Of a stretch of 40,340 nt of DNA, positions 10,201 to 21,453 are shown piece after piece. The stretch lies in the NCBI GenBank assembly GCA_937867415.1, contig CALMKO010000087.1:1-40340 (forward strand). Reading direction: 5' to 3'. Positions within the stretch are counted from its first letter, which is position 1; each line of letters begins with the position of its first letter. The translations under genes and the position numbers were made by a program. The notes beneath the pieces are model-generated. The model was given only the letters and a program-made list of their open reading frames with translations, did no database searches and was not told the origin of the DNA. The stretch comes from an uncultured Verrucomicrobiota bacterium (lineage in GTDB: Bacteria; Verrucomicrobiota; Verrucomicrobiia; Verrucomicrobiales; Akkermansiaceae).

Positions 10201-12540
10201 TCAATAACAACGTATGGCAAACAGGGCTGCGGGGACGTCAATGGAAGGACTGAGGAGCTGGATCTCAAGACGGTCGGTCGTCATCGGAGGGTCGAAGCGG
10301 ATCGTCCGGCGCGTTTGGTGGTTCGCGGCGATTTCTGCGACGATCGAGGTGGCAGCGTGATGAAGCGTGGTGGTGGCCGACTGGCCGCTTCCTGACGGGT
10401 TCCCGGATGGCGGCGAAATGGAGACTTTCACGTTCTGGACGCAGAATGGCATGTCGCGTTCCGGGTGGCCCATGAGGACGGACTCCATGGGATGGTCGAA
10501 GTCGGTATCGAAGTCGAGTTCCACGGTTGTGAGTGTCTGCGGTTCCTTCCAAGCGAGTCGGAGGGTGGGTTGTTCGTGCGAGAAATCGGCCACCCAGGCG
10601 TTGGTGCTCCGGGTGGGGCGGCTGATGCCGTTGGTTAGATTTTCCACGCTGAAGCTGCGCAGCGGGGGATCGAGGGTGAGGGCGAGGTTCTTGCCCGCAG
10701 GGCGGCGCTTGGGTGTCCAGAACTCAAAGGTATCGATGCCGATTCCGGGGGGCGGAGACTGGGTGTTCGACTTGGCGACGGCCTTGTTGCCGGCTTGGCA
10801 AAGCGCCAGGATGCCAGTCAGGCGTTGATCGCTGAGATGGGCGGAAATTTGATCGTTCTTGATCAGGCAGATGAAGGCATACCGAGTGTCCTGAAGCTGG
10901 GTCTCAAAATCCAATGTCACCTTTTGGTCCTTGCCCGACTCGAGTGGGATGGCCAGGGATTTGAGGATCACATCCGGGGTGTGATTGTCCGGTTTTTCAC
11001 TGGTTCTGAGTTCCGCGTGGAGCGTGGTGGGTGCGCTGACATCAAGGGTGAAGGAGATTGCCGGGACCGCACCTTGTGAGACGGGCAACATCATGGCCCA
11101 GGATTCCGCGAGATGGAGGGTCTCGCCGCTCGCAGAGAGTTCGGAAAGCGCGAGCTCACTGGTTGCAGTGATGGTGGCGCTGCGGGCGAGGTCGACGGGT
11201 TCCTCAAGGGTCACGCCCGGGATGTACTGGCCGGTACGCAGCAGCGTGTTTTGGAACTCGCGCATGAGCGACGGCTTGAGGAGTTCGCGCGGATTGACCT
11301 GATGTTTCAGGCAGAGTGCGGCGGCGATCCCGACCGCCTGGCCACCGTGGGCGCAGGTGGCCATGACCCGGGTGCTGGCGAAGGCGACGTGGGAGGCGCT
11401 GATGATCCGCCCGGCGAGCATCAGGTTCGGAATGTTCCGGCTATACATCGAGCGCCAAGGGATCTGATAGGTGCCCTTGGAGTGCCACTGGGTGCAGCCG
11501 GGTTGCGCGCTGAAGACGCCGTCCACCGGGTGGAGGTCGATGGCCCATCCGCCGAATGAGACGGCATCCGGGTGGACGCGCTGTTCCACGATGTCCTGCT
11601 GGGTGACAATGAGATCGCCCTCGAAGCGGCGGCTTTCACGTTTGCCCGGAATGGTGCCGACCCATTCGAGAGTGAGCGTTTCCGCTTCGGGAAACTGGCC
11701 GGAGTTCTTGATGTGGTTCCAGACGCCGTAGGAGACTTTCCAGAGTTCCATTTTGATGGTCTCGCTGTCGTGAATGGTGTCGAGCGCGCCACCCCACTCG
11801 ATCCACCAGAGGCGGCAGCCGGATTCGCCCGCCTTGAAGTCCCGCCAGCGCGGGATCTTGGTGATGTCGGAGAGGGCAAAGCTTGGGGGGGTGAATTTCA
11901 CCGGACGTCCCGTATCTTTGGAATGGAAATATATGGTATGCCCTAACAGCTCCGACGAGGCCTTTTCAGGAGCGAACAGTTCACCGAATTCCTCGCGCCC
12001 TTCCGCGCCGATGCGGAATGCTGCACCTGCGAGGAACCCGACGATGCCATCGCCGCTGGCGTCGCAGAAGAGCGGGGCGGAAATCACATAGCAAGTTGAG
12101 TTCTGGGAGCAAAACGCGGTCACCGAGCGGATGCTGTCGTCCGCGCCTTTCTCAAGATCGTGAACAGCGGTGTTCAGGAGCAGGGTGATGTTGCTTTCCG
12201 CGAGCACCCACTCAAGCAGGATGGTGTCCAGAATGAGGGAGTTCCCTTCGGGGTTGCGGTGCATGTTTTCGACGAGGATTTCATCGATCACGCCACCTTC
12301 GCGGGCCCAGCGGTTGTTATTTCCCATGTGGGAGGTGGCACCGAGGATCCAGAGCCGGACTTCGCTGGAAGCGTTTCCGCCGAGTACGGGGCGGTCTTGA
12401 ACCAGCGTGACCTTGATTCCGGCGCGGGCTGCCGCGATGGCACAGCAGGCACCTGACAGGCCGCCGCCGACGACAACGAGGTCGCAGGATTGGTGAAGGG
12501 TGTGGAGCTCTCTTTGCGGGGCGGGTGCTTCGATGATCAT
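10201..12540 (-). CDS. FAD-dependent oxidoreductase (PF12831-type) with C-terminal beta-sandwich extension
   Basis: The ATG at 12540 gives a 779-residue protein whose Rossmann FAD-binding motif starts almost at once (D-L-V-V-V-G-G-G-L-S-G at ~20-30, then V-L-G-G-N-A-S-S-E-V-R). The second FAD contact region appears near residue 420 (M-L-A-G-R-I-I-S-A-S-H-V-A, C-A-H-G-G-Q-A-V-G). These are hallmarks of the FAD_oxidored family, common in glycan loci of Verrucomicrobiota and Planctomycetes but with few characterised members. From about residue 480 there is a long beta-rich extension resembling tandem carbohydrate-binding or discoidin-like sandwiches. No signal peptide is visible, so it is probably cytoplasmic. 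It overlaps the MFS gene by four bases (ATGA, 12537-12540), linking oxidation of a substrate with its uptake. The 130 bases to the kinase hold no clear terminator. Confidence 0.88.
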   Translation of the reverse strand: MIIEAPAPQRELHTLHQSCDLVVVGGGLSGACCAIAAARAGIKVTLVQDRPVLGGNASSEVRLWILGATSHMGNNNRWAREGGVIDEILVENMHRNPEGNSLILDTILLEWVLAESNITLLLNTAVHDLEKGADDSIRSVTAFCSQNSTCYVISAPLFCDASGDGIVGFLAGAAFRIGAEGREEFGELFAPEKASSELLGHTIYFHSKDTGRPVKFTPPSFALSDITKIPRWRDFKAGESGCRLWWIEWGGALDTIHDSETIKMELWKVSYGVWNHIKNSGQFPEAETLTLEWVGTIPGKRESRRFEGDLIVTQQDIVEQRVHPDAVSFGGWAIDLHPVDGVFSAQPGCTQWHSKGTYQIPWRSMYSRNIPNLMLAGRIISASHVAFASTRVMATCAHGGQAVGIAAALCLKHQVNPRELLKPSLMREFQNTLLRTGQYIPGVTLEEPVDLARSATITATSELALSELSASGETLHLAESWAMMLPVSQGAVPAISFTLDVSAPTTLHAELRTSEKPDNHTPDVILKSLAIPLESGKDQKVTLDFETQLQDTRYAFICLIKNDQISAHLSDQRLTGILALCQAGNKAVAKSNTQSPPPGIGIDTFEFWTPKRRPAGKNLALTLDPPLRSFSVENLTNGISRPTRSTNAWVADFSHEQPTLRLAWKEPQTLTTVELDFDTDFDHPMESVLMGHPERDMPFCVQNVKVSISPPSGNPSGSGQSATTTLHHAATSIVAEIAANHQTRRTIRFDPPMTTDRLEIQLLSPSIDVPAALFAIRCY

Positions 12541-13997
12541 GGTGAAGGCGAGGTGATGGGTGATACGGTCGGGTGGTGAATGCGGGCGAGCCAAAGGAGT
12601 AACCAGGCGGCGGGGTGCAGGAAGGCCATGATCAGGAACCATTGGCCGTAACCGTGTCCTTGGACCTGTTCCAGAAGTCCTCCGAAGACGGACTTGATCG
12701 CTTGGTCGAGGAAGCCTGCCGGCTTGGTGGAAGGTCCGCTGACCATGGTGGCGACGATCATGTTCATCACGATTCCACCGATGGTGCTGCCGGTGGCGAC
12801 CACGCTGAAGACCGTGCCGAGCGAGTGCTTGGGCACGAGATCGACGACAAGCGAGCTGATGTTGATGAGCCAGGCCAACGAGGCCACGACCGTGCACGCG
12901 GCAAGTGTCATGGCGAGGCTGAGACCGGTGATTTGAGAAATGAAGGGGGAGAGCGGCATTAGGCAGGCGCAGCCAAACATCACCCACATGCGGCTTCTGG
13001 CCGGGGCCATGCCCCGTGCCACGAGGCGACCAGACAGCCAGCCGCCTAACAGGCTGCCGATCCCGGCGGCCGCGTAAACCACCCAGGTGATCTTGAGCTC
13101 TTCCTGGCTGAGATGCCTGTCGCTGGAGAGGTATTTGGCGAACCAAAATTGATAGAAATACCAAACGGGATCGGTGATGAGGCGGCCGACCAGAAGATAC
13201 CAAGTGCCACGGTAGGTGAAGACTTGCCCCCATGTCCAAGGGCGACCGGCCTCTTTGGCCGCTTCGACATCGGAGGTTTCCTCGATCAAGGCGAGCTCGT
13301 CAGGGCCCAGAAAACGATTTTCACGGGGTTGGCGGTAGAGGAAAAGCCAAGGAATCAACCAGACCAGCCCGGCAGCACCGGTCACGATGAATGCCACACG
13401 CCAGCCGGTCCCGTGACTGAAGATGTTGGTGACCAGTGGCAGTTTTTCTGCGTAGGGATAGGTGGCCAGGGGGATGACGATGTATGGGGCCAAGGTCGCG
13501 CCGATGGTGGCTCCCATGGTGTAGAATCCGATGGCAAGCGCCCTTTGGCGGGCAGGGAACCACTCTGAGACTGCTTTGGAAGCGGCCGGCCACACACCTG
13601 CCTCGCCAAGGCCGAGGGCGAAGCGGCAGATCGACATCGAGCGCATGCCCTGCGCTCCAGCAGTGATCATGTTGGCGATCGACCACCAGGTGACGAAAAG
13701 GATCATGCCGGCGCGAGTCCCCATGATGTCAGTGATGCGGCCGGAGACCAAATAGGCAATCGTGTAGGCAACGAGGAAGATATTGACCACGTTCGCATAG
13801 TCACGATCATCCATATCGAGGTCCTTCTGGATCGTTGGTGCAAGTGCGGACAAGGTTTGGCGGTCGACGTAGTTGAGGACTGCCGCGCCGAAGAGAAGTC
13901 CGATGATCCACCAGCGCAGGCCGGGGATGACACAACGCTTTTTCCCGCTTGGTGTGACGGGGGCGGTGGGCGTGGTGATTGTCGGATGAGAGGGCAT
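12537..13997 (-). CDS. MFS transporter of the anion:cation symporter family (hexuronate-transporter-like)
   Basis: A 486-residue inner-membrane protein with about 12 hydrophobic segments. TM1 ends with L-N-Y-V-D-R-Q-T, the signature start of the ACS family (ExuT, GudP and relatives). Other family features are R-F-A-L-G-L-G-E-A-G-V-W-P-A after TM3 and E-W-F-P-A-R-Q-R-A in the TM4-5 loop. ExuT-like proteins take up glucuronate and galacturonate with protons, which fits a neighbouring heparinase-type lyase that releases uronates; the exact substrate is inference. It is first in a likely operon with the overlapping oxidoreductase and the downstream kinase/regulator pair. It is divergently transcribed from the XylR-like regulator, which probably controls it. 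The hydrophilic 25-residue N-terminus is slightly long for the family. Confidence 0.9.
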   Translation of the reverse strand: MPSHPTITTPTAPVTPSGKKRCVIPGLRWWIIGLLFGAAVLNYVDRQTLSALAPTIQKDLDMDDRDYANVVNIFLVAYTIAYLVSGRITDIMGTRAGMILFVTWWSIANMITAGAQGMRSMSICRFALGLGEAGVWPAASKAVSEWFPARQRALAIGFYTMGATIGATLAPYIVIPLATYPYAEKLPLVTNIFSHGTGWRVAFIVTGAAGLVWLIPWLFLYRQPRENRFLGPDELALIEETSDVEAAKEAGRPWTWGQVFTYRGTWYLLVGRLITDPVWYFYQFWFAKYLSSDRHLSQEELKITWVVYAAAGIGSLLGGWLSGRLVARGMAPARSRMWVMFGCACLMPLSPFISQITGLSLAMTLAACTVVASLAWLINISSLVVDLVPKHSLGTVFSVVATGSTIGGIVMNMIVATMVSGPSTKPAGFLDQAIKSVFGGLLEQVQGHGYGQWFLIMAFLHPAAWLLLWLARIHHPTVSPITSPSP

Positions 13998-14130
13998 TGG
14001 GCGGATTCGGAGCGGAGGCGTCGGGCTTGCAGGTGAGTTAGATCACCCCTGCGCCATGAGGTTAAAGCAAATTTCCCTTGCCTGTCATGCGAGAGTGCGC
14101 ATTATTTCTGCGATTTTGCGTCCAGCCATT
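13998..14130. promoter_or_regulatory. Divergent control region between the MFS operon and the XylR-like regulator
   Basis: This 133-base region separates the ATG of the transporter from the preferred ATG of the regulator at 14131. On the plus strand, TTGCCT (14078-14083) and ATTATT (14101-14106) are 17 bases apart and could serve as a weak -35/-10 pair, which would favour the internal start at 14131 over the upstream ATG at 14056. I found no strong inverted repeat. Regulators of this type often act on the adjacent divergent gene, so this is the first place to look for their operator. Confidence 0.35.
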
Positions 14131-15303
14131 ATGTCAAAAAATGAAATGAAGTCAGTTCCTGTAAAGCGGGTGGCAATTCTGGTTGACACATCAACCACCT
14201 GGGGGCGCGACGTGATTGCAGGAGTGCATCGGTATAGCCGCGAAAACGTGGGATGGCAATTGTTTGTTGAGCCGCGCGGGGTGGAGCAGCGGCGCTGGTT
14301 GCCGATCGGGTGGAAGGGAGATGGGGTGATCGCGCGGGTGGGTTTCTTGGATTTGGCCAAGAAACTGAAGTCGCTGAAGCTGCCGGTGGTCAATGTCTCC
14401 GGGATCACGCTGCCGAAGCTGGATTTTCCGCGGGTCGTATCGGACCAGGTGGCGGCGGCGAACGTGGCGGCCGAGCATCTGCTGGCACGGGGGTTCCGGC
14501 ATTTCGGATATTTCAGTTTGCTGGGCTTGGAGTATGTGGCGGAGCACCAGCAGGCGTTTTTGGATCGTTTGCGGAGGGAGGGGCACCGTTGTGATGTCTT
14601 CGCGGTGAGTCCTCACCTTGGCGCAGAACCGGATTGGAATCTCGATATGAAACGCTTGGGGAAATGGCTCCGGGAACTTCCCAAGCCTCTCGCCGTCTTT
14701 ACTTGGAACAGCAGCAGCGCGCGGGAGTTGATCTATGCCTGCATGCAGTCCGGCTTGTCGGTCCCTGAGGAAGTGGCGGTGCTCAGTGGCTCGGACGATG
14801 ATTTGTTCTGCGAAGTCACGCCGGTGCCGATTTCCGCAGTGCAGCTCGGCTGCGAGCAAATCGGCTACCGCGCTGCGGCGGAATTGGATACCATGATGAA
14901 GAACCCCACATCGAAGGTGGTCCCCGAGGTGCTGATCCCGCCGCAGGGGGTCGTGGAACGACGCTCGACGGATACTCTTGCGGTGGGCGATCCTGCGATG
15001 GTCAAGGCGTTGCGGTTCATCCGTGAAAATCCGGCGCGGCTCATGAATGTGAGCGACGTGGCCAGGCAGGCCGGGCTCTGCAGGCGTGCGCTGGAGCTGC
15101 GCTTTCAAAACCTGTTAGGGCGTTCGCCGGCGTCCGAGATCCGCCGTGTGCGTCTGGATCATGCGATCGACCTCCTGCAATGCACGAATCTGTCGGTGGC
15201 GACGGTCGCGGAGCGATCGGGATTCAGCAGTCCCGAATACATGGCTTCGGTTTTCAGAAGCCAGCTTGCAAGTACTCCACTCCATTACCGTAAACAGAAT
15301 TAA
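14131..15303 (+). CDS. XylR-like transcriptional regulator: periplasmic-binding-protein fold plus AraC-type DNA-binding domain
   Basis: The protein has 390 residues from the ATG at 14131. A further in-frame ATG at 14056 would add 25 residues not typical of the family, so I prefer the later start. The N-terminal ~275 residues are a LacI/periplasmic-binding-like sugar sensor (K-R-V-A-I-L-V-D-T-S-T-T-W-G-R at the start, A-V-L-S-G-S-D-D-D-L-F-C near 210, P-P-Q-G-V-V-E-R-R-S at the hinge). The last ~105 residues are an AraC/HTH_18 domain with two helix-turn-helix units (N-V-S-D-V-A-R-Q-A-G-L-C-R-R and VATVAERSGFSSPEYMASVF). This is the architecture of XylR from E. coli, which binds xylose. The ligand here is some sugar or sugar acid. 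It is divergent from the MFS/oxidoreductase operon and 64 bases upstream of the ECF sigma gene. Confidence 0.92.
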   Translation: MSKNEMKSVPVKRVAILVDTSTTWGRDVIAGVHRYSRENVGWQLFVEPRGVEQRRWLPIGWKGDGVIARVGFLDLAKKLKSLKLPVVNVSGITLPKLDFPRVVSDQVAAANVAAEHLLARGFRHFGYFSLLGLEYVAEHQQAFLDRLRREGHRCDVFAVSPHLGAEPDWNLDMKRLGKWLRELPKPLAVFTWNSSSARELIYACMQSGLSVPEEVAVLSGSDDDLFCEVTPVPISAVQLGCEQIGYRAAAELDTMMKNPTSKVVPEVLIPPQGVVERRSTDTLAVGDPAMVKALRFIRENPARLMNVSDVARQAGLCRRALELRFQNLLGRSPASEIRRVRLDHAIDLLQCTNLSVATVAERSGFSSPEYMASVFRSQLASTPLHYRKQN

Positions 15304-15343
15304 GCGGCCGCTGTTCGAACGTGATGTGTCGGAATGGCAGGCT

Positions 15344-15352
15344 TGCTACAAT
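15344..15352 (+). promoter_or_regulatory. Possible extended -10 promoter for the ECF sigma operon
   Basis: TG-C-TACAAT matches the extended -10 pattern (TGnTATAAT) with one mismatch. It lies 15 bases before the ATG at 15368, so transcription would start only a few bases upstream of the start codon. No -35 with good spacing is visible, as expected for extended -10 promoters. It could also be chance in a 64-base gap. Confidence 0.3.
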
Positions 15353-15367
15353 TCACCGCAGACGATC

Positions 15368-15952
15368 ATGGTAAACCCCGCACCCGACCCCGAAAATGAA
15401 AGCAAGTGGCTCCGCGAGGCCGCTGCTGGCGACTTGGCAGCGTTTTCCAAGTTGGTCTTGCATCATCAATGGGCGGTCCGGGCCTACCTCCTTGCCCGTT
15501 TAAGCCGGAAACATGAGGCGGAGGATCTGGCTCAGGAGACATTCCTCACCGCTTGGAAAGGGCTCAAAACCTTTGACTCCTCCCGCGCTTTCGCCCCTTG
15601 GCTGCGGGGGATCGCTGAGAATCATCTCCGCAATCACCTGCGGAAGTTCCGGGCCGAACCGATCGGGGGCGATGAGGCCCTCCAACTGCTGCTGGATCGC
15701 CATGCGGATTTTTCAAGCCCCACCGAAGACGAGTCGGATCTCGCCACGGCCTTGCGGGATTGCATGGCGAGGATCGATGACGAGGCGCGCAAGCTTCTGA
15801 TGTCACGCTACGCCGAGGGCCGCAGCATGGCCGAAATCTGCGCGAGCACGGGAAAAAAACATTCCGCCATGACCATGAAACTTCACCGCCTGAGGCTTGC
15901 CCTGTCGGCATGTGTCGCAGGCAAGCTTGCCGGTTCACAATCAGCGATCTGA
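15368..15952 (+). CDS. ECF RNA polymerase sigma factor (Rhodopirellula/Verrucomicrobium-type)
   Basis: A 194-residue sigma-70 family protein with only regions 2 and 4. Region 2 (~25-94) contains A-E-D-L-A-Q-E-T-F-L-T-A-W-K and the -10 recognition stretch A-P-W-L-R-G-I-A-E-N-H-L-R. Region 4 (~125-180) contains L-L-M-S-R-Y-A-E-G-R-S-M-A-E-I-C and the helix-turn-helix K-K-H-S-A-M-T-M-K-L-H-R-L-R. The ATG at 15368 is chosen because homology starts shortly after it; the frame is open further upstream inside the regulator gene. Its TGA shares one base with the ATG of the FecR-LamG gene (TGATG, 15950-15954), so the two are coupled. A sigma factor beside a membrane FecR protein suggests control by a cell-surface signal. 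Confidence 0.93.
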   Translation: MVNPAPDPENESKWLREAAAGDLAAFSKLVLHHQWAVRAYLLARLSRKHEAEDLAQETFLTAWKGLKTFDSSRAFAPWLRGIAENHLRNHLRKFRAEPIGGDEALQLLLDRHADFSSPTEDESDLATALRDCMARIDDEARKLLMSRYAEGRSMAEICASTGKKHSAMTMKLHRLRLALSACVAGKLAGSQSAI

Positions 15953-17550
15953 TGGATATCCCTGACATCGATCTCCTGATCACCCGCTTGCTTGAGGCAG
16001 ACGCGTCGCCGCAGGAGGTGGAGGCCCTGCGATCCGCATGTGCGGCGGATCCGGCGCTCGCTTTGCGCTTGGTTCGCGAGGTCGCCTTGCATCGGCTCAC
16101 AGGCGCGGTCATTGCCGGGACGGATGGTGATGCCCGCTTCGCGGCGGAAGTGGTGGCCCGCATCCAGTCTTCTCCGGCGGGTGAGGCGACTCCTGCTCCG
16201 ACTTCCATCCAGCGGGGTGTTGAAAAACGGGTCCGCCGGACGGTGTTTTTCTCCCGCGTGACCCGTCCGCTGGCGCTCGCTGCGCTGGTAGCCCTGGCGG
16301 TAGGGCTGCCGTTTTTGATGGCCTCGCGCGAGTCGGTGACCTTGACCCGGAGCGAGTCCGTGGTGTGGACGGGCGCGTCCGCCGAGATGGGTGACCTGTT
16401 GCAGGCGGGACGGGTGTTGGAGCTTTCCTCGGGCCTTGCTGAATTGAAGTTTCCTGATGGAGTATCGGTCTTGTTAGAGGGGCCGGCGAGGCTGCAAGTG
16501 ACCGGCTCTAAAAGTGCGCGGGTGGACTACGGGCGTCTCGTCGCGCGCGTGACCGAGGTACGCGGCAGGGGCTTTGTGGTCGACGGACCAAGCGGACGTG
16601 TGGTCGATCTCGGCACCGAGTTCGGCGTCAGTGTGGAGCGTTCGGGAGCTATGGAAGTGCACGTGCTTGAGGGGGCCGTCACTGCGGCATCCCATCAGCA
16701 AAAAGAGTCCGTGGTCACGCTTCAAAAGAACCAGGCGATGCGCCTCGGTTCCGGACCCTCGCAGCGCATCCCTGCGGACGGTGGCGTGTTCGTCACCAAT
16801 CTCCCTCCCGTCCCGGGGCGGGCGCCCGGATTCATCCGTTGGGGCTTTGAAGAGGAAAGCGGCGCGGCCCTGCGCAACAGCGGCACCGGACTTGCCGAGC
16901 CGGAAGCAGGGGCGAGCTTGTTATCGGCAGGCGGAGGGAATGATCTTGCCCGGCGGATTGATGGGAAAATCGGCAAGGCACTCGCATTCGACGGAATCTC
17001 GAATTTCGCGGAGAGCGGGTTCGAAGGGATCGCGGGGCAGGCACCGCGCACCGTCTCGTTGTGGGCCAGAATTCCCGAGGACCTCACCATCAATCAGAGT
17101 TACGCGATGATCGGGTGGGGGCGCGTCGAGGGCTTGGGAAGCGCCTGGCAGATCTCGGTGAACCCGCTGGCGGAGGATGGCCCGCTCGGTGCATTGCGGG
17201 TCGGAACCGGCAAGGCTGCCGTCGTGGGTTCCACGGATCTCCGCGACGGCAAATGGCATCACCTCACAGCCGTGATGTATGGTGGCTCGCCCAATACCGC
17301 CACCCATGTGCTGCTGTATGTGGACGGTGTGCTTGAATCCGCAACCCGGAAATCCGTCAGAAACATCGACACCCAGCCCTCGACGGTATCCCACGGAGTC
17401 TGGATGGGGCGCAATCTCTCGCGAATCAACTCAGAGCCGCCACAGTCCTTCTTTTTCCGCGGCGACCTCGATGAGGTGTATATCTTCTCCGCCGCACTCG
17501 ACCAGCCGATGATCCAGCAAGTCATGAACGGGCTGGCACCCGAGTCCTGA
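15952..17550 (+). CDS. Membrane FecR-domain protein with extracytoplasmic LamG domain (candidate anti-sigma / glycan sensor)
   Basis: The ATG at 15952 gives 532 residues. Residues 1-100 are a cytoplasmic segment with an acidic helical start (MDIPDIDLLITRLLEADASP), comparable in size to anti-sigma regions. A single transmembrane helix at ~105-124 (P-L-A-L-A-A-L-V-A-L-A-V-G-L) follows a positively charged stretch. The FecR domain is at ~150-245 (G-L-A-E-L-K-F-P-D-G-V, G-P-S-G-R-V-V-D-L-G-T-E-F-G-V, V-L-E-G-A-V). A LamG/concanavalin-like domain fills ~297-525 (G-K-A-L-A-F-D-G, G-K-W-H-H-L-T-A-V, F-F-R-G-D-L-D-E-V-Y-I-F). FecR proteins signal to sigma factors across the membrane. The lectin-like domain here could bind glycan directly and replace a TonB-linked partner; that is inference. 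It is coupled to the sigma gene, and the next gene begins 19 bases downstream. Confidence 0.9.
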   Translation: MDIPDIDLLITRLLEADASPQEVEALRSACAADPALALRLVREVALHRLTGAVIAGTDGDARFAAEVVARIQSSPAGEATPAPTSIQRGVEKRVRRTVFFSRVTRPLALAALVALAVGLPFLMASRESVTLTRSESVVWTGASAEMGDLLQAGRVLELSSGLAELKFPDGVSVLLEGPARLQVTGSKSARVDYGRLVARVTEVRGRGFVVDGPSGRVVDLGTEFGVSVERSGAMEVHVLEGAVTAASHQQKESVVTLQKNQAMRLGSGPSQRIPADGGVFVTNLPPVPGRAPGFIRWGFEEESGAALRNSGTGLAEPEAGASLLSAGGGNDLARRIDGKIGKALAFDGISNFAESGFEGIAGQAPRTVSLWARIPEDLTINQSYAMIGWGRVEGLGSAWQISVNPLAEDGPLGALRVGTGKAAVVGSTDLRDGKWHHLTAVMYGGSPNTATHVLLYVDGVLESATRKSVRNIDTQPSTVSHGVWMGRNLSRINSEPPQSFFFRGDLDEVYIFSAALDQPMIQQVMNGLAPES

Positions 17551-17569
17551 AATTTTTTTCGATCCTATT

Positions 17570-20017
17570 ATGAAACTGTTAGCAACCCTGTTCCTGTCCG
17601 CCCTGCCGCTTTTCGCCGCCGAACCTCCTTCATGGAGCGGCATCTATCCGCATCTCGCGTTTTTCAACGAAGAAGGTGAGTGCGGCACCGGTGCCGTCGT
17701 CCCGTGGGCGGATCGCCTGTGGGCCATCACCTACGGTCCTCACCTGCCGCATGGCTCGACGGACAAGCTCTACGAAATCACCCCGGATCTCAAGTTGGTC
17801 GTCCGCCCCGAGAGTGTCGGCGGCACGCCTGCGAACCGCATGATCCACCGTGAATCCGGCCAGTTGATCATCGGCCCGTATCTGATCGATGAGAAGCGGG
17901 AGGTGCGGGTGCTTCCGCCCAAGCTCATGCCCGGCCGCCTCACTGGCAATGCGCGCCATCTCAAGGATCCCGCCGGGAAAGTCTATTTCGCGACGATGGA
18001 GGAAGGCCTGTATGAGGTGGATGTGAAGACCCTCGAAGTCACCGGCCTGATCAAGGACGGGGGAGGGGACAAGGCCGGATTCACCGAGCAGAAGAACCCC
18101 GCCTCTGTCGGTTCGAAGCTTCCCGGCTATCATGGCAAGGGTCTCTACTCCGGCCAGGGGCGCGTGGTTTATGCGAACAATGGCGAGCGGAGCAAGGAGG
18201 CCGAGCGCGATCCACGGACCGCCAGCGGCGCGCTCGCCGAGTGGACGGGCAAGGGTGATTGGGAACTGGTGCGGCGCAATCAGTTCACCGAGGTCACCGG
18301 CCCGGGCGGTATTTCAGGAAGTGAAAACCCCGCCACCGATCCGATCTGGAGCGTGGGCTGGGATTCCCGCTCGTTGATCCTGATGATGCTCGACGGCGGA
18401 AAATGGCATGCTTACCGCCTGCCGAAGGCCAGCCATTGTTACGACGGAGCACACGGTTGGAATACCGAGTGGCCGCGCATTCGTGACATCGGCGAGAAGG
18501 ATCTGCTCATGACCATGCACGGGATGTTCTGGAGGTTTCCCAAAACCTTCAGCGCGAAAAACGCCGCCGGCATCCGGCCGCGCTCGACCTACCTCAAGGT
18601 CATCGGCGACTTCTGCAAATGGAACGACCGGCTTGTCTTCGGCTGCGACGACACCGCCAAGTCCGCCTTCCTCAATGAAAAAATCGGCGATGACTTCCTT
18701 GCCAGCCCCGGCCAGTCCCAGTCGAATCTCTGGTTCACCCCGCCCGCGATCCTGGATGTGTTAGGCCCTGCGCTCGGCCGCGGTGCGGTTTGGCTCCGTG
18801 AGGATGTGAAGGCTGGAACGCCCTCCGACGCCTTCCTCTTCGCCGGCTATCAAAGACGTGTTCTCCACCTCGCTCACAAGTCCGCACAAGCCGTGGAATT
18901 CACCCTTGAGACTGATGCCCGTGGCGATGGAAATTGGCAAACGCTGCGCAAGGTCAGCGTGCCCGCGACGGGATCCGCCATGGTGGAATTCCCGGCAGCC
19001 GACAAAGGGGAGTGGATCCGTGTCCGCTCTGTTAGGGATTGCCTCGCCGCCACCGCCGCATTTGTCTATTCCAATCCCGATACCCGGGAAACGGAGTCTG
19101 ATCCGATGTTCGCCGGCATCTCTGGGGTGGATTCCAAAAGCGAGGTATCCACCGGTTGGATGCGTGCCCGCGGCAATAACAAGCGCAGCTTACTTGTTTC
19201 CCTCGCTTCCGAGCCGGACCAGAAGCCATCCGGGAAAATCTGTTATGAGCTCGATGCGGAGATGAAACTGCGCCCGCTTGCCGATGCTCCCAACCCCGGT
19301 GAACTGAAACTCGGCACCAGCCTCAAGAATGGCACGCTCACCGTCGAGGAATCCGCCGTCATCTTCACCGACCGCACGGGTGCCAAGTGGCGCCTGCCGC
19401 GTGGATCCGCTGCGTTCGACAAGCTCACTGCCAACGGCATCATCCGCCTGCAGCGCGAAATCAGCACTGAGCGCTATCTCCTCAACTGCCACGGAACCTT
19501 CTACGAACTTCCCACCGAGAACGCTGGCGGACTCGCCAAGATCCGGCCGATTTCCAGCCACGGGCGCCTCATCGGCGACTTCGCTTCCTATCGTGGATTG
19601 CTCGTCATCACCGGCATCGAAGCTGCCGCGAAGTCCCCGCACATCATCCGCTCGGATGACGGCAAGGCCGCTGTCTGGGCCGGCGCCATCGATGATCTCT
19701 GGAAGCTCGGCAAGCCCACCGGCACCGGCGGACCGTGGTTGAAGAGCGCCGTCAAAGCCGGCACTCCGTCCGACCCCTATCTCTTCACAGGCTACGACAA
19801 GAAATCCCTGTCACTCACTCACGAAGGCAAGGATGCGGTCTCATTCAAGGTCGAACTGGATGTCACGGGTGAAGGCGACTGGGTGCTCTATCAGGATCTG
19901 AAGGTGAAACCCGGCGAGACCCTGAACCACGAAATCCCGGATACCTGCCAAGCCTACTGGGTCAGAATCACGCCCTCCGCAGATACCACGGCCAGCGCCC
20001 GCTTCGACTATCGATGA
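17570..20017 (+). CDS. Secreted protein of unknown function with a large internal duplication
   Basis: An 815-residue protein with a clear signal peptide (MKLLATLFLSALPLFAAEPP). The first ~300 residues look propeller-like (D-R-L-W-A-I-T-Y-G-P-H, K-L-Y-E-I-T-P-D-L, K-V-Y-F-A-T-M-E-E-G-L-Y-E-V-D). A module of ~190 residues is then present twice, around 280-505 and 600-815. Paired landmarks are HGMFWRFP with HGTFYELP, R-S-T-Y-L-K-V-I-G-D-F with S-H-G-R-L-I-G-D-F, and D-V-K-A-G-T-P-S-D-A-F-L-F-A-G-Y with A-V-K-A-G-T-P-S-D-P-Y-L-F-T-G-Y. Each copy ends in a beta-sandwich. I do not recognise a catalytic motif. It sits between the FecR-LamG gene (19-base gap) and the esterase gene, with which it overlaps by four bases (ATGA, 20014-20017). 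A carbohydrate-binding or glycan-processing role is inferred from context. Confidence 0.88.
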   Translation: MKLLATLFLSALPLFAAEPPSWSGIYPHLAFFNEEGECGTGAVVPWADRLWAITYGPHLPHGSTDKLYEITPDLKLVVRPESVGGTPANRMIHRESGQLIIGPYLIDEKREVRVLPPKLMPGRLTGNARHLKDPAGKVYFATMEEGLYEVDVKTLEVTGLIKDGGGDKAGFTEQKNPASVGSKLPGYHGKGLYSGQGRVVYANNGERSKEAERDPRTASGALAEWTGKGDWELVRRNQFTEVTGPGGISGSENPATDPIWSVGWDSRSLILMMLDGGKWHAYRLPKASHCYDGAHGWNTEWPRIRDIGEKDLLMTMHGMFWRFPKTFSAKNAAGIRPRSTYLKVIGDFCKWNDRLVFGCDDTAKSAFLNEKIGDDFLASPGQSQSNLWFTPPAILDVLGPALGRGAVWLREDVKAGTPSDAFLFAGYQRRVLHLAHKSAQAVEFTLETDARGDGNWQTLRKVSVPATGSAMVEFPAADKGEWIRVRSVRDCLAATAAFVYSNPDTRETESDPMFAGISGVDSKSEVSTGWMRARGNNKRSLLVSLASEPDQKPSGKICYELDAEMKLRPLADAPNPGELKLGTSLKNGTLTVEESAVIFTDRTGAKWRLPRGSAAFDKLTANGIIRLQREISTERYLLNCHGTFYELPTENAGGLAKIRPISSHGRLIGDFASYRGLLVITGIEAAAKSPHIIRSDDGKAAVWAGAIDDLWKLGKPTGTGGPWLKSAVKAGTPSDPYLFTGYDKKSLSLTHEGKDAVSFKVELDVTGEGDWVLYQDLKVKPGETLNHEIPDTCQAYWVRITPSADTTASARFDYR

Positions 20018-21453
20018 AATGGTTGCTCCTGTTTCTCGGGCTTCTTGCACCGCTTCACGCGGGCCAGAAGATCTACCGGATCATGCCGGTGGGCGACTCG
20101 ATCACCGAGGGCGGGAGCTCTTTTTCAAACTGGCGCTACCCGCTCTGGGAGAGACTCTACACGGCGGGGTATTTGGTTAGATTTGTCGGTTCGCGCAGCA
20201 CTCCGTCGCGCATGGGTGACCTGGCGCACGAGGGATATGGCGGGAAGAATTCGACCTTCCTCGCCGCCACCGTGCCGGCCAACTTCAAGAAGCACCCGGC
20301 GGACATCGTCCTGCTTCACGCCGGGCACAACCAGTTCGCCGATCAGAAACCCGTTCCTCAGATCCTCAAGGACACCGAGTCGCTGATCCGGGATTTCCGC
20401 AAGGTGAATCCGCAAGTCACGGTGCTTCTCGCCCAGCCGATCCCGAGCGGCAAGCTGCCGAAGTATTCGTATCTGCCAGAGCTTGGCCGTGAGCTCGGGC
20501 TGCTCGCCAGGCACCTCGACCAGCCAGCTTCCCGAATCATCATCGTCCCCCAGGCCGCTGGCTTTGATCCGGTCAAGGATACCGTGGCCGATCTCGTGCA
20601 CCCGAATGCCACGGGTGCGGCGAAGATGACGCGCCGCTGGTTCGACGCGCTGGTCACGGTCATGGAAAAACCTCCCGCCGTCTATCAGCCGGAACTACTT
20701 CCTTACAAATCGCCTGCCAAGGGAGATCTCACGTTGCATGTCTTCCGCCCGGCCGGGGCGGCGACCCCCGCGCGTCCGGCCATCGTCTTCTTCTTCGGCG
20801 GTGGATGGCAGCGGGGCACGCCGCTCCAGTTCTATCCGGAATGTCGCGCGCTGGCGGCCAGGGGAATGGTCGCCATCAGCGCGGACTACCGCACGGCGTT
20901 CAGCCATGGCACCAGCGCCTTTGAAGCTGTGGCCGACGGGAAATCCGCCATCCGCTGGGTCCGTGCGCACTCCAGCGAGCTCGGGATTGATCCCCACCGC
21001 ATCGCCGCCGCTGGAGCTTCGGCCGGCGGTCAAGTGGCGGCGGCGGCAGGCATCATCACCGGTCTGGATGACGCCACCGAGGATCGAACGGTCTCCTCGC
21101 GGCCGGACGCGCTGGCGCTCTGGTATCCGGTCATCGACAATGGTCCGCTGGGTTATGGTGATGCCGCGGTGAAGGGGCGCTATCAGGAGATTTCGCCGCT
21201 GCACAACGTCTCCGCGCAATCCCCGCCGACCCTCTTTTTCCTGGGGACCAAGGACCCCTTGGTGCCGGTGGCGACCGCGCGGGAATTCGAGTCCCGGATG
21301 AAAAACGCCGGCGTGCGTTGCGAGGTGAAACTCATCGAAGGTGGTGGCCACCCCGTCTATGCGTATCAAGACGGCCCCTCGACCTTGCGGGATGACATGC
21401 TGAACGACTGCGTGATCTTCCTGCGCGCAGGAGGACTGCTTCCACCGGATTGA
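20014..21453 (+). CDS. Secreted two-domain esterase: SGNH/GDSL hydrolase fused to an alpha/beta hydrolase
   Basis: A 479-residue exported protein (signal peptide MKWLLLFLGLLAPLHAG). The SGNH domain covers ~18-220: block I G-D-S-I-T with Ser29, block III G-H-N with Asn106, and block V D-L-V-H with Asp193 and His196. From ~235 a second hydrolase follows: F-F-F-G-G-G-W in the oxyanion position (the usual H-G-G-G has Phe for His), nucleophile elbow G-A-S-A-G-G with Ser336, then G-T-K-D-P-L-V-P with Asp414 and G-G-G-H-P-V-Y with His446. Both active sites look complete, so the protein could remove two different ester groups (for example acetyl groups) from a polysaccharide. Bacterial acetylxylan-esterase-like proteins use both folds, usually in separate proteins. 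It is last in the sigma-factor cassette and coupled to the preceding gene. Confidence 0.92.
   Translation: MKWLLLFLGLLAPLHAGQKIYRIMPVGDSITEGGSSFSNWRYPLWERLYTAGYLVRFVGSRSTPSRMGDLAHEGYGGKNSTFLAATVPANFKKHPADIVLLHAGHNQFADQKPVPQILKDTESLIRDFRKVNPQVTVLLAQPIPSGKLPKYSYLPELGRELGLLARHLDQPASRIIIVPQAAGFDPVKDTVADLVHPNATGAAKMTRRWFDALVTVMEKPPAVYQPELLPYKSPAKGDLTLHVFRPAGAATPARPAIVFFFGGGWQRGTPLQFYPECRALAARGMVAISADYRTAFSHGTSAFEAVADGKSAIRWVRAHSSELGIDPHRIAAAGASAGGQVAAAAGIITGLDDATEDRTVSSRPDALALWYPVIDNGPLGYGDAAVKGRYQEISPLHNVSAQSPPTLFFLGTKDPLVPVATAREFESRMKNAGVRCEVKLIEGGGHPVYAYQDGPSTLRDDMLNDCVIFLRAGGLLPPD

Follow-up and report, generated by a model that had tools for sequence, protein, structure and literature searches.

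Four plus-strand genes at 15368–21453 of a 40,340-nucleotide (nt) stretch of DNA from an uncultured Verrucomicrobiota bacterium of the Akkermansiaceae (contig CALMKO010000087.1, the whole stretch being called the window below) encode an extracytoplasmic function (ECF) sigma factor, a FecR protein with a LamG domain (FecR-LamG), and two secreted proteins, P3 and P4. The reading we favour, with a probability of about 0.6, is that the sigma factor and FecR-LamG would form a dedicated transmembrane switch. FecR-LamG would hold the sigma factor at the inner membrane by its N-terminus, which resembles class I anti-sigma domains, and its periplasmic part would receive a signal, most probably through the binding of a glycan or a fragment of one to LamG, with no TonB transducer of the FecA type. 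Signal-dependent proteolysis, for which a site-2 protease is a candidate, would then free the sigma factor, and this would recognise TTGTGT-N17-GACAMT and transcribe its own operon and P3. In the window, P3 and P4 would both be transcribed on the sigma operon. What is new here is this promoter-like motif, found before sigma genes of the clade of the window sigma and before P3, in three genomes on contigs other than that of the sigma gene. P3, and not an esterase operon, is the recurring target predicted for the clade from these sequences.

The sigma gene (15368..15952, +, 194 amino acids) is a member of TIGR02989 (Sig-70_gvs1) by its score of 134 bits (cut-off 124.55). In Pfam, an ECF match was found, region 2 was above cut-off (E 4e-16) and region 4 reached 24.4 bits for a cut-off of 25.7. 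The A that ends its TGA also opens the FecR-LamG ATG at 15952 (gap −1), as the initial annotation of this DNA had noticed. Relatives of FecR-LamG were found in 71 of 99 genomes, its own included. When 100 loci and the window were read, 94 open reading frames (ORFs) with a FecR domain were scored, and 90 of them immediately follow a sigma gene of the same strand; 72 of these pairs overlap or abut and 18 lie within 30 nt. The remaining 4 were either cut at contig ends (2) or lacked a sigma gene upstream (2). The gene arrangement seen by the initial annotation is therefore real, the pairing exceeds chance, and a sigma gene with its FecR partner forms a general module. One relative genome contained at least 33 matches to the window sigma.

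FecR-LamG (15952..17550, +, 532 amino acids) is a predicted single-pass anti-sigma factor. From its N-terminus, it comprises a class I anti-sigma-like domain (residues ~1–43, 15952..16080), a single strong hydrophobic segment predicted to be a transmembrane helix between cytoplasmic and periplasmic parts (residues ~107–125, 16270..16326, Kyte-Doolittle maximum 2.31 over 19 residues) and preceded by basic residues, a FecR domain (residues 162–243, 16435..16680, PF04773, 38.2 bits for a cut-off of 24, E 2e-9) and a concanavalin A-like LamG_3 domain, the presumed periplasmic sensor (residues 365–521, 17044..17514, PF13385, 45.1 bits for a cut-off of 27.6, E 1.5e-11). An anatomy made of an anti-sigma-like domain, one helix, a FecR domain and a binding-type domain is thus assigned to the FecR-LamG kind because of the domain matches, the hydrophobic segment and the N-terminal profile described below. 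One helix with LamG outside had been claimed earlier; the segment and the LamG_3 domain were found, and only the word "outside" needs to be restated. Verrucomicrobiota are known to have an outer membrane, so that in such a cell the LamG domain would sit in the periplasm, and its ligand would therefore probably be an imported fragment. The LamG3 domains of other proteins have been reported to bind carbohydrate, in the context of Bacteroidota DUF1735 proteins (PMC11216935).

Domains were then counted in the 89 complete FecR proteins, at an E-value of 0.001. PF04773 was matched in 83, LamG_3 in 61 and CBM96 in 12, and PA14 and F5/8C-type domains were rarer (2 each). The 20 proteins without LamG were inspected singly: CBM96 was recognised in 9 (7 over cut-off), an F5/8C-type domain in 2 (1 over cut-off) and PA14 in 1 (just below cut-off). 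Wherever it could be positioned, the binding-type domain was C-terminal to the FecR domain, at residues ~270–415 in the proteins lacking LamG. For the cytoplasmic end, a profile built from the first 50 of the 89 FecR N-termini was compared to 177,635 PDB sequences, and the top two matches were MucA (6in7, E 4.3e-4) and RseA (8z6g, E 7e-4), a resemblance to class I anti-sigma domains from which the predicted sigma-binding role is drawn. Helices were placed at residues 6–14, 20–32, 34–49 and 58–73 in a low-confidence AlphaFold2 model (3 sequences only, mean predicted local distance difference test score, pLDDT, of 44), which was used solely for the helical character of the N-terminus.

The motif TTGTGW-N17-GACAMT was obtained by Gibbs sampling of the sequences that precede 12 clade sigma genes, among which it is shared. 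Its information content was 9.59, compared to 7.94–8.77 for 20 dinucleotide shuffles treated with equal effort (60 starts for the real set and for these shuffles; earlier single-base shuffles had 20 starts). The gene starts of loci L066 and L069 were placed by hand, and the position weight matrix was built from 10 of the 12 sites, those of L074 and L079 being omitted for their distance from the start. The window site, ATGTGT-N17-TACAAT (15324..15352, +), has a leave-one-out score of 11.4 and ends 15 nt before the sigma ATG. Over 89 sigma upstream regions altogether, a score of at least 11 was reached before 9 of 11 clade members, all of these being training sites, and before none of the 78 non-clade sigma genes (maximum 9.9). 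In nine genomes of the clade group, a strict form of the motif was counted 28 times, versus 7 times for a backward control. Six of the 28 immediately precede either the window sigma or a gene or operon of the P3 family (window, G002, G012, G024, G020 and G021); among the other 22, 19 fall within longer reading frames and 2 in short doubtful ones, and the last is intergenic with no ORF behind it.

A wider survey was used to obtain loci outside the training set. Searches for the sigma clade covered 386 genomes at the level of the order and 73 at that of the genus, two overlapping sets, of which 49 and 13 respectively were positive (E 1e-32), and 46 new clade loci were fetched from the order-wide search. 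A motif of at least 11 was present within 150 nt before the sigma gene in 17 of these 46 loci (18 if rounded stored scores are used at 11.0), versus 3.6% of 1126 controls (p 2e-13). Every ORF of at least 120 amino acids that starts with ATG in these loci was taken as a control, and spurious ORFs are among them. The 46 loci cannot be treated as independent, as six are in G307 and three in G161, and L317 and L318 are alike. P3 was found in the fetched stretch of 19 of them, where a rough density gives an expectation of ~0.1. Before P3, a motif of at least 13 within 400 nt was detected in 8 of 18 P3 loci, for 3.1% of controls (p 2.6e-8; these loci contain 22 P3 copies, and the best per locus was scored). 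Relatives of other window genes were also present in the 46 loci: a FAD (flavin adenine dinucleotide) oxidoreductase in 8, a XylR-type regulator in 2 and a transporter of the major facilitator superfamily (MFS) in 1.

The link between motif and P3 was also seen where P3 is placed separately from the sigma gene. In genomes of the group, 5 of 5 such P3 genes carried the motif (G020 12.5, G049 11.5, and 16.1 in each of G012, G024 and G002), and none of 93 other P3 genes reached 11 (p 1.5e-8; the P3 of L087, at 11.5 in a wider span, was below 11 in this comparison). In G020, G002 and G012 the motif-bearing P3 is on a contig other than that of the sigma gene. G024 was included by a FecR fragment only, with no sigma match at the search threshold. 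G000, G038 and G021, in which P3 lies in or after the sigma operon (scores 0.7, 5.2 and 0.8), were placed in neither category. Strong sites of 19.6 were found before a second, P3-like gene of G020 and before the operon that follows FecR in G021 and contains a P3-like gene. G052 has sites of 13.7 and 14.3 on the divergent side, facing P3-like genes. At the named locus L111, outside the training set, one site (14.4) points towards the sigma gene and another (13.7) towards a divergent P3-like ORF, which precedes P3 and is 64% identical to the P3-like gene of G020. A promoter-like motif upstream of the co-conserved genes, as the initial annotation had envisaged, is thus present for the sigma gene and for P3; before P4 only scores of 1.1 to 7.1 were obtained.

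Several observations weigh against the switch as we propose it. The motif at 11 bits is absent from the sigma side of 29 of the 46 new clade loci and no P3 was seen in 27, so that neither code nor target is universal in the clade. Clade members L074 and L079 score below 11, although L074 has a 16.2 site farther upstream. G063, G077 and G098 carry the sigma clade and have P3 without the motif (1.9, 1.0 and −1.2); they were in neither category of the comparison above, and when all six such genomes are counted with the five positive ones, the P3 motif is present in 5 of 11. Three of these five (G002, G012 and G024) appear to be closely related. In addition, the comparison group contained 75 named P3 records unchecked for the sigma clade, among which L111 does carry it. 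The motif of G098 and G063 is found instead before a divergent operon with pilin-like genes among its members. As for the protein partners, single-sequence comparison with the N-termini of E. coli RseA and FecR gave a weak result, and the coevolution signal between the sigma factor and the FecR N-terminus was unconvincing, with 22 of the top 100 pairs in that end, for 15% of the columns (90 pairs, effective number of sequences, Neff, 67). Finally, 8 of the 20 singly inspected proteins without LamG had no recognised sensor domain. The pilin-like label used above rests on FTLVE-type starts, which we take to be a mark of such proteins. At L077 and L078, sigma/FecR-LamG is divergent from pilin-like genes and genes for very long proteins, and the motif occurs on each side.

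The P3 gene (17570..20017, +, 815 amino acids) starts 19 nt after the end of FecR-LamG and overlaps P4 by 4 nt, the overlap of the two secreted genes having been correctly reported before. P3 begins with a signal-peptide-like stretch, judged by eye, and no Pfam family was above cut-off. Its internal duplication was also described before; residues ~265–485 and 593–800 are 32% identical. In the AlphaFold2 model (pLDDT 90.5), a beta-propeller is predicted at residues ~22–394: many propeller folds matched residues ~22–400, with Z up to 18.2, whole-model TM-scores were low, and the fold search barely covered the residues beyond ~400. No function of P3 was inferred from these matches, and its profile had no match to PDB sequences up to E 0.1. 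P3 was matched in 52 of the 99 genomes, own included, and in at least 581 stretches of public genomes, whose record titles include Planctomycetota and Kiritimatiellae; among the matches listed, the closest named relatives are in metagenome-assembled genomes of Verrucomicrobiaceae and Akkermansiaceae. It appears to be a large, uncharacterised family of secreted propeller proteins that merits a family of its own. In the best 80 named P3 loci (L080–L159, 55–71% identity to the window P3), this sigma gene and FecR are nearby in only 2, L113 has a weak sigma match, and many flanks are cut. Several frequent neighbours of P3 there are housekeeping genes, and PF12831 FAD oxidoreductase relatives occur in 11. 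A general association of P3 with the sigma/FecR pair was accordingly rejected: because P3 is widespread and only these 2 loci have the pair, the two are linked when one starts from the sigma genes but not when one starts from P3. P3-like genes also lie beside sigma/FecR or FecR of other clades at L076 and L184 of G052, where no site scoring at least 10 is placed as a promoter; this hints at more than one pairing of P3-like cargo with modules of this type.

The part of the mechanism concerning transduction was addressed in the window's own genome, whose assembly measures 4.9 Mb. Six TonB plug matches were found, and the STN domain (PF07660) had no match in this genome, 95.75% complete and in 470 contigs, where a gene may have been missed. 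The same search was positive in 4 of 14 control genomes. This agrees with the earlier suggestion that no TonB receptor takes part, and a sigma/FecR-LamG switch without one is plausible from the gene content. Since STN was looked for and not found, FecR-LamG was classed as a FecR-type anti-sigma factor and kept apart from FecIRA systems. Matches to M50 site-2 proteases are present in the same genome, and RseP, of this class, is reported to cleave FecR in E. coli (PMC8144685).

Three other explanations were weighed against the proposed switch. In classical FecI/FecR signalling, a TonB receptor encoded elsewhere would relay the signal and LamG would be only structural; the FecR domain and the six plug matches suit this scheme, but it is highly improbable given the lack of an STN match in this draft genome, where a gene may have been missed. 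It is improbable too, though less so, that P3 and P4 obey the adjacent XylR-type regulator and that sigma/FecR is a recent insertion with no role on them. The gene order speaks for such control, as XylR precedes sigma/FecR/P3 in the window and in G038, directly precedes P3 without sigma/FecR in G020 (L061), and adjoins P4 in G021 (L067). However, that same G020 locus carries the motif before P3 (12.5 bits), as do G002, G012 and G024 (16.1), and the new clade loci contain XylR relatives in 2 cases of 46, against 19 for P3.

A somewhat stronger contender, which we nevertheless consider unlikely, is that the FecR-LamG ectodomain reads the secretion state or surface form of the cargo, the sigma factor tuning the supply of surface structures such as P3, autotransporter-like, PEP-CTERM and pilin-like proteins. 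The first genes after FecR are compatible with this: over 62 of them (65 less 3 short ones left out), the leading families were DUF1549/DUF1553 (9), PATR autotransporter-like repeats (8), sulfatase (6), PEP-CTERM (6) and LamG (5), and the motif before the divergent operon with pilin-like genes in G098 and G063 goes in the same direction. What disfavours it is that carbohydrate-binding-type folds follow the FecR domain in many FecR proteins (61 LamG and 12 CBM96 matches in 89), and that the XylR, MFS and FAD oxidoreductase genes at the window locus suggest sugar use.

Among known systems, the best reading is that the closest working analogue of the sigma/FecR-LamG switch would be clostridial SigI/RsgI, here built from ECF sigma and FecR parts. 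In Clostridium thermocellum, RsgI is likewise described as an anti-sigma factor that crosses the membrane once, binds the sigma factor through its N-terminus and carries a sensor that varies; these sensors (CBM3, CBM42, PA14, GH10 and others) bind extracellular carbohydrate and the system controls secreted proteins (PMC12203970). Here LamG_3 would be the corresponding extracytoplasmic domain, a candidate for carbohydrate binding. In contrast, the window has a TIGR02989 ECF sigma, no SigI model being among the 25 best NCBIfam matches listed for it, and a FecR-type anti-sigma factor with LamG or, in relatives, CBM96; the sensor is presumably periplasmic, and the recurring target would be a propeller protein where cellulosome components are reported for SigI/RsgI (PMC12203970). 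With FecI/FecR/FecA of E. coli, the window shares an ECF sigma, a single-pass regulator with a FecR domain and an overlapping gene pair; it differs by the lack of an STN match, the extra LamG, and an N-terminus nearer to MucA and RseA by profile. E. coli FecR is itself described as unlike other class I anti-sigma factors, its N-terminus being required for sigma activity (PMC7406223). The LIC_12757/LIC_12756 pair of Leptospira interrogans also consists of an ECF sigma and a FecR-like partner, whose interaction was shown, and TonB receptors without an N-terminal extension are reported for that organism, which gives a precedent; unlike in the window, this FecR has 350 amino acids, is tied to iron or nutrient limitation, and LamG is not mentioned in the passages describing it (PMC12155086). 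In Rhodopirellula baltica, an ECF sigma was proposed to regulate an adjoining DUF1549/DUF1553 gene, of the kind that follows 9 of 62 FecR genes here, whereas the passages on that case mention neither FecR nor LamG (PMC2754498). The TIGR02989 model, the "Rhodopirellula/Verrucomicrobium family", describes the sigma factor only. The literature searched, which left most subscription papers outside, yielded no study of what the FecR-LamG kind senses or controls.

More tentatively, and with rather less than even confidence, we propose that Verrucomicrobiota evolved, in parallel to clostridial RsgI, a large family of FecR anti-sigma factors with interchangeable periplasmic carbohydrate-binding sensors (LamG, CBM96, F5/8C, PA14), sensing directly and with no TonB transducer, in which each pair would have its own promoter code and few secreted proteins as targets, P3 being that of the present clade. 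Anti-sigma factors that bind carbohydrate and sense it directly may have arisen outside clostridia too. ECF sigma factors are abundant in these relatives, and a motif, a target and a candidate sensor for the present clade make the question of their signals and targets testable. Two other dyads were each common to 7 of the 89 sigma upstream regions, TGTCCGGTTT with GAGATA and TGTCCAA with GCCT (at most 4 in five single-base shuffles); they are possible promoter codes of other sigma clades.

P4 (20014..21453, +, 479 amino acids) is a predicted secreted dual esterase, as the initial annotation had it, with GDSL (PF13472) and BD-FAE/abhydrolase (PF20434) domains both over cut-off, and solved structures exist for relatives of both halves. 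The same annotation had proposed to look for a conserved order of the four genes in relatives, and had suggested that the sigma factor drives its own esterase operon. Neither found support: the complete sigma-FecR-P3-P4 order was seen in the window alone among the loci read, and was rejected as a conserved unit, and P4 was in none of the 46 new clade loci. Within 300 nt before P4, the motif scored 1.1, 1.1, 4.9, 6.3, 4.4 and 7.1 in six loci, no better than chance. The esterase part of the claim is therefore weak, P3 being the recurring partner, and P4 is probably a passenger in the window operon.

Relatives of P4 over both domains were found in 6 of 98 other genomes. In G002, G012 and G024 they are in a run with an F5/8C protein and glycoside hydrolases of families GH95 and GH29, and the G020 relative is near a GH29 gene. 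At L068 (4841–13256) and L069 (1711–10234), the F5/8C, GH95, GH29 and P4 run is divergent from sigma/FecR-LamG, and is probably a cluster for the degradation of fucose-containing glycans. Control of this operon by the sigma factor, from which it diverges in G002 and G012, was considered and rejected, the motif scores being too low; before the F5/8C gene they were 3.0 to 5.7 in four loci (one with 111 nt upstream only), and the G024 contig with the run has no sigma gene. Because its relatives sit with GH95 and GH29, P4 fits a fucose-glycan esterase, which we infer to have been added to the P3 operon in the lineage of the window.

Upstream of the sigma gene, the window contains a XylR-type regulator (14056..15303, +; XylR PBP1 and AraC helix-turn-helix domains, PF22177, PF13377 and PF12833) and two divergent genes, for an MFS transporter that belongs to the XylR/P3 neighbourhood (12537..13997, −; PF07690, E 9e-48) and for a FAD-dependent oxidoreductase (10201..12525, −; PF12831). 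The XylR neighbourhood recurs in G038 (L064) and G020 (L061). In the window and G038 sigma/FecR lies between XylR and P3. In G020 the pair is absent at this place and XylR directly precedes P3, the motif standing in the interval. The difference looks like insertion or loss of the sigma/FecR pair at its own target promoter. The clade itself has apparently expanded in some genomes, with six copies in G307 (L323, L335, L344, L350, L351 and L352) and three in G161 (L330, L339 and L348).

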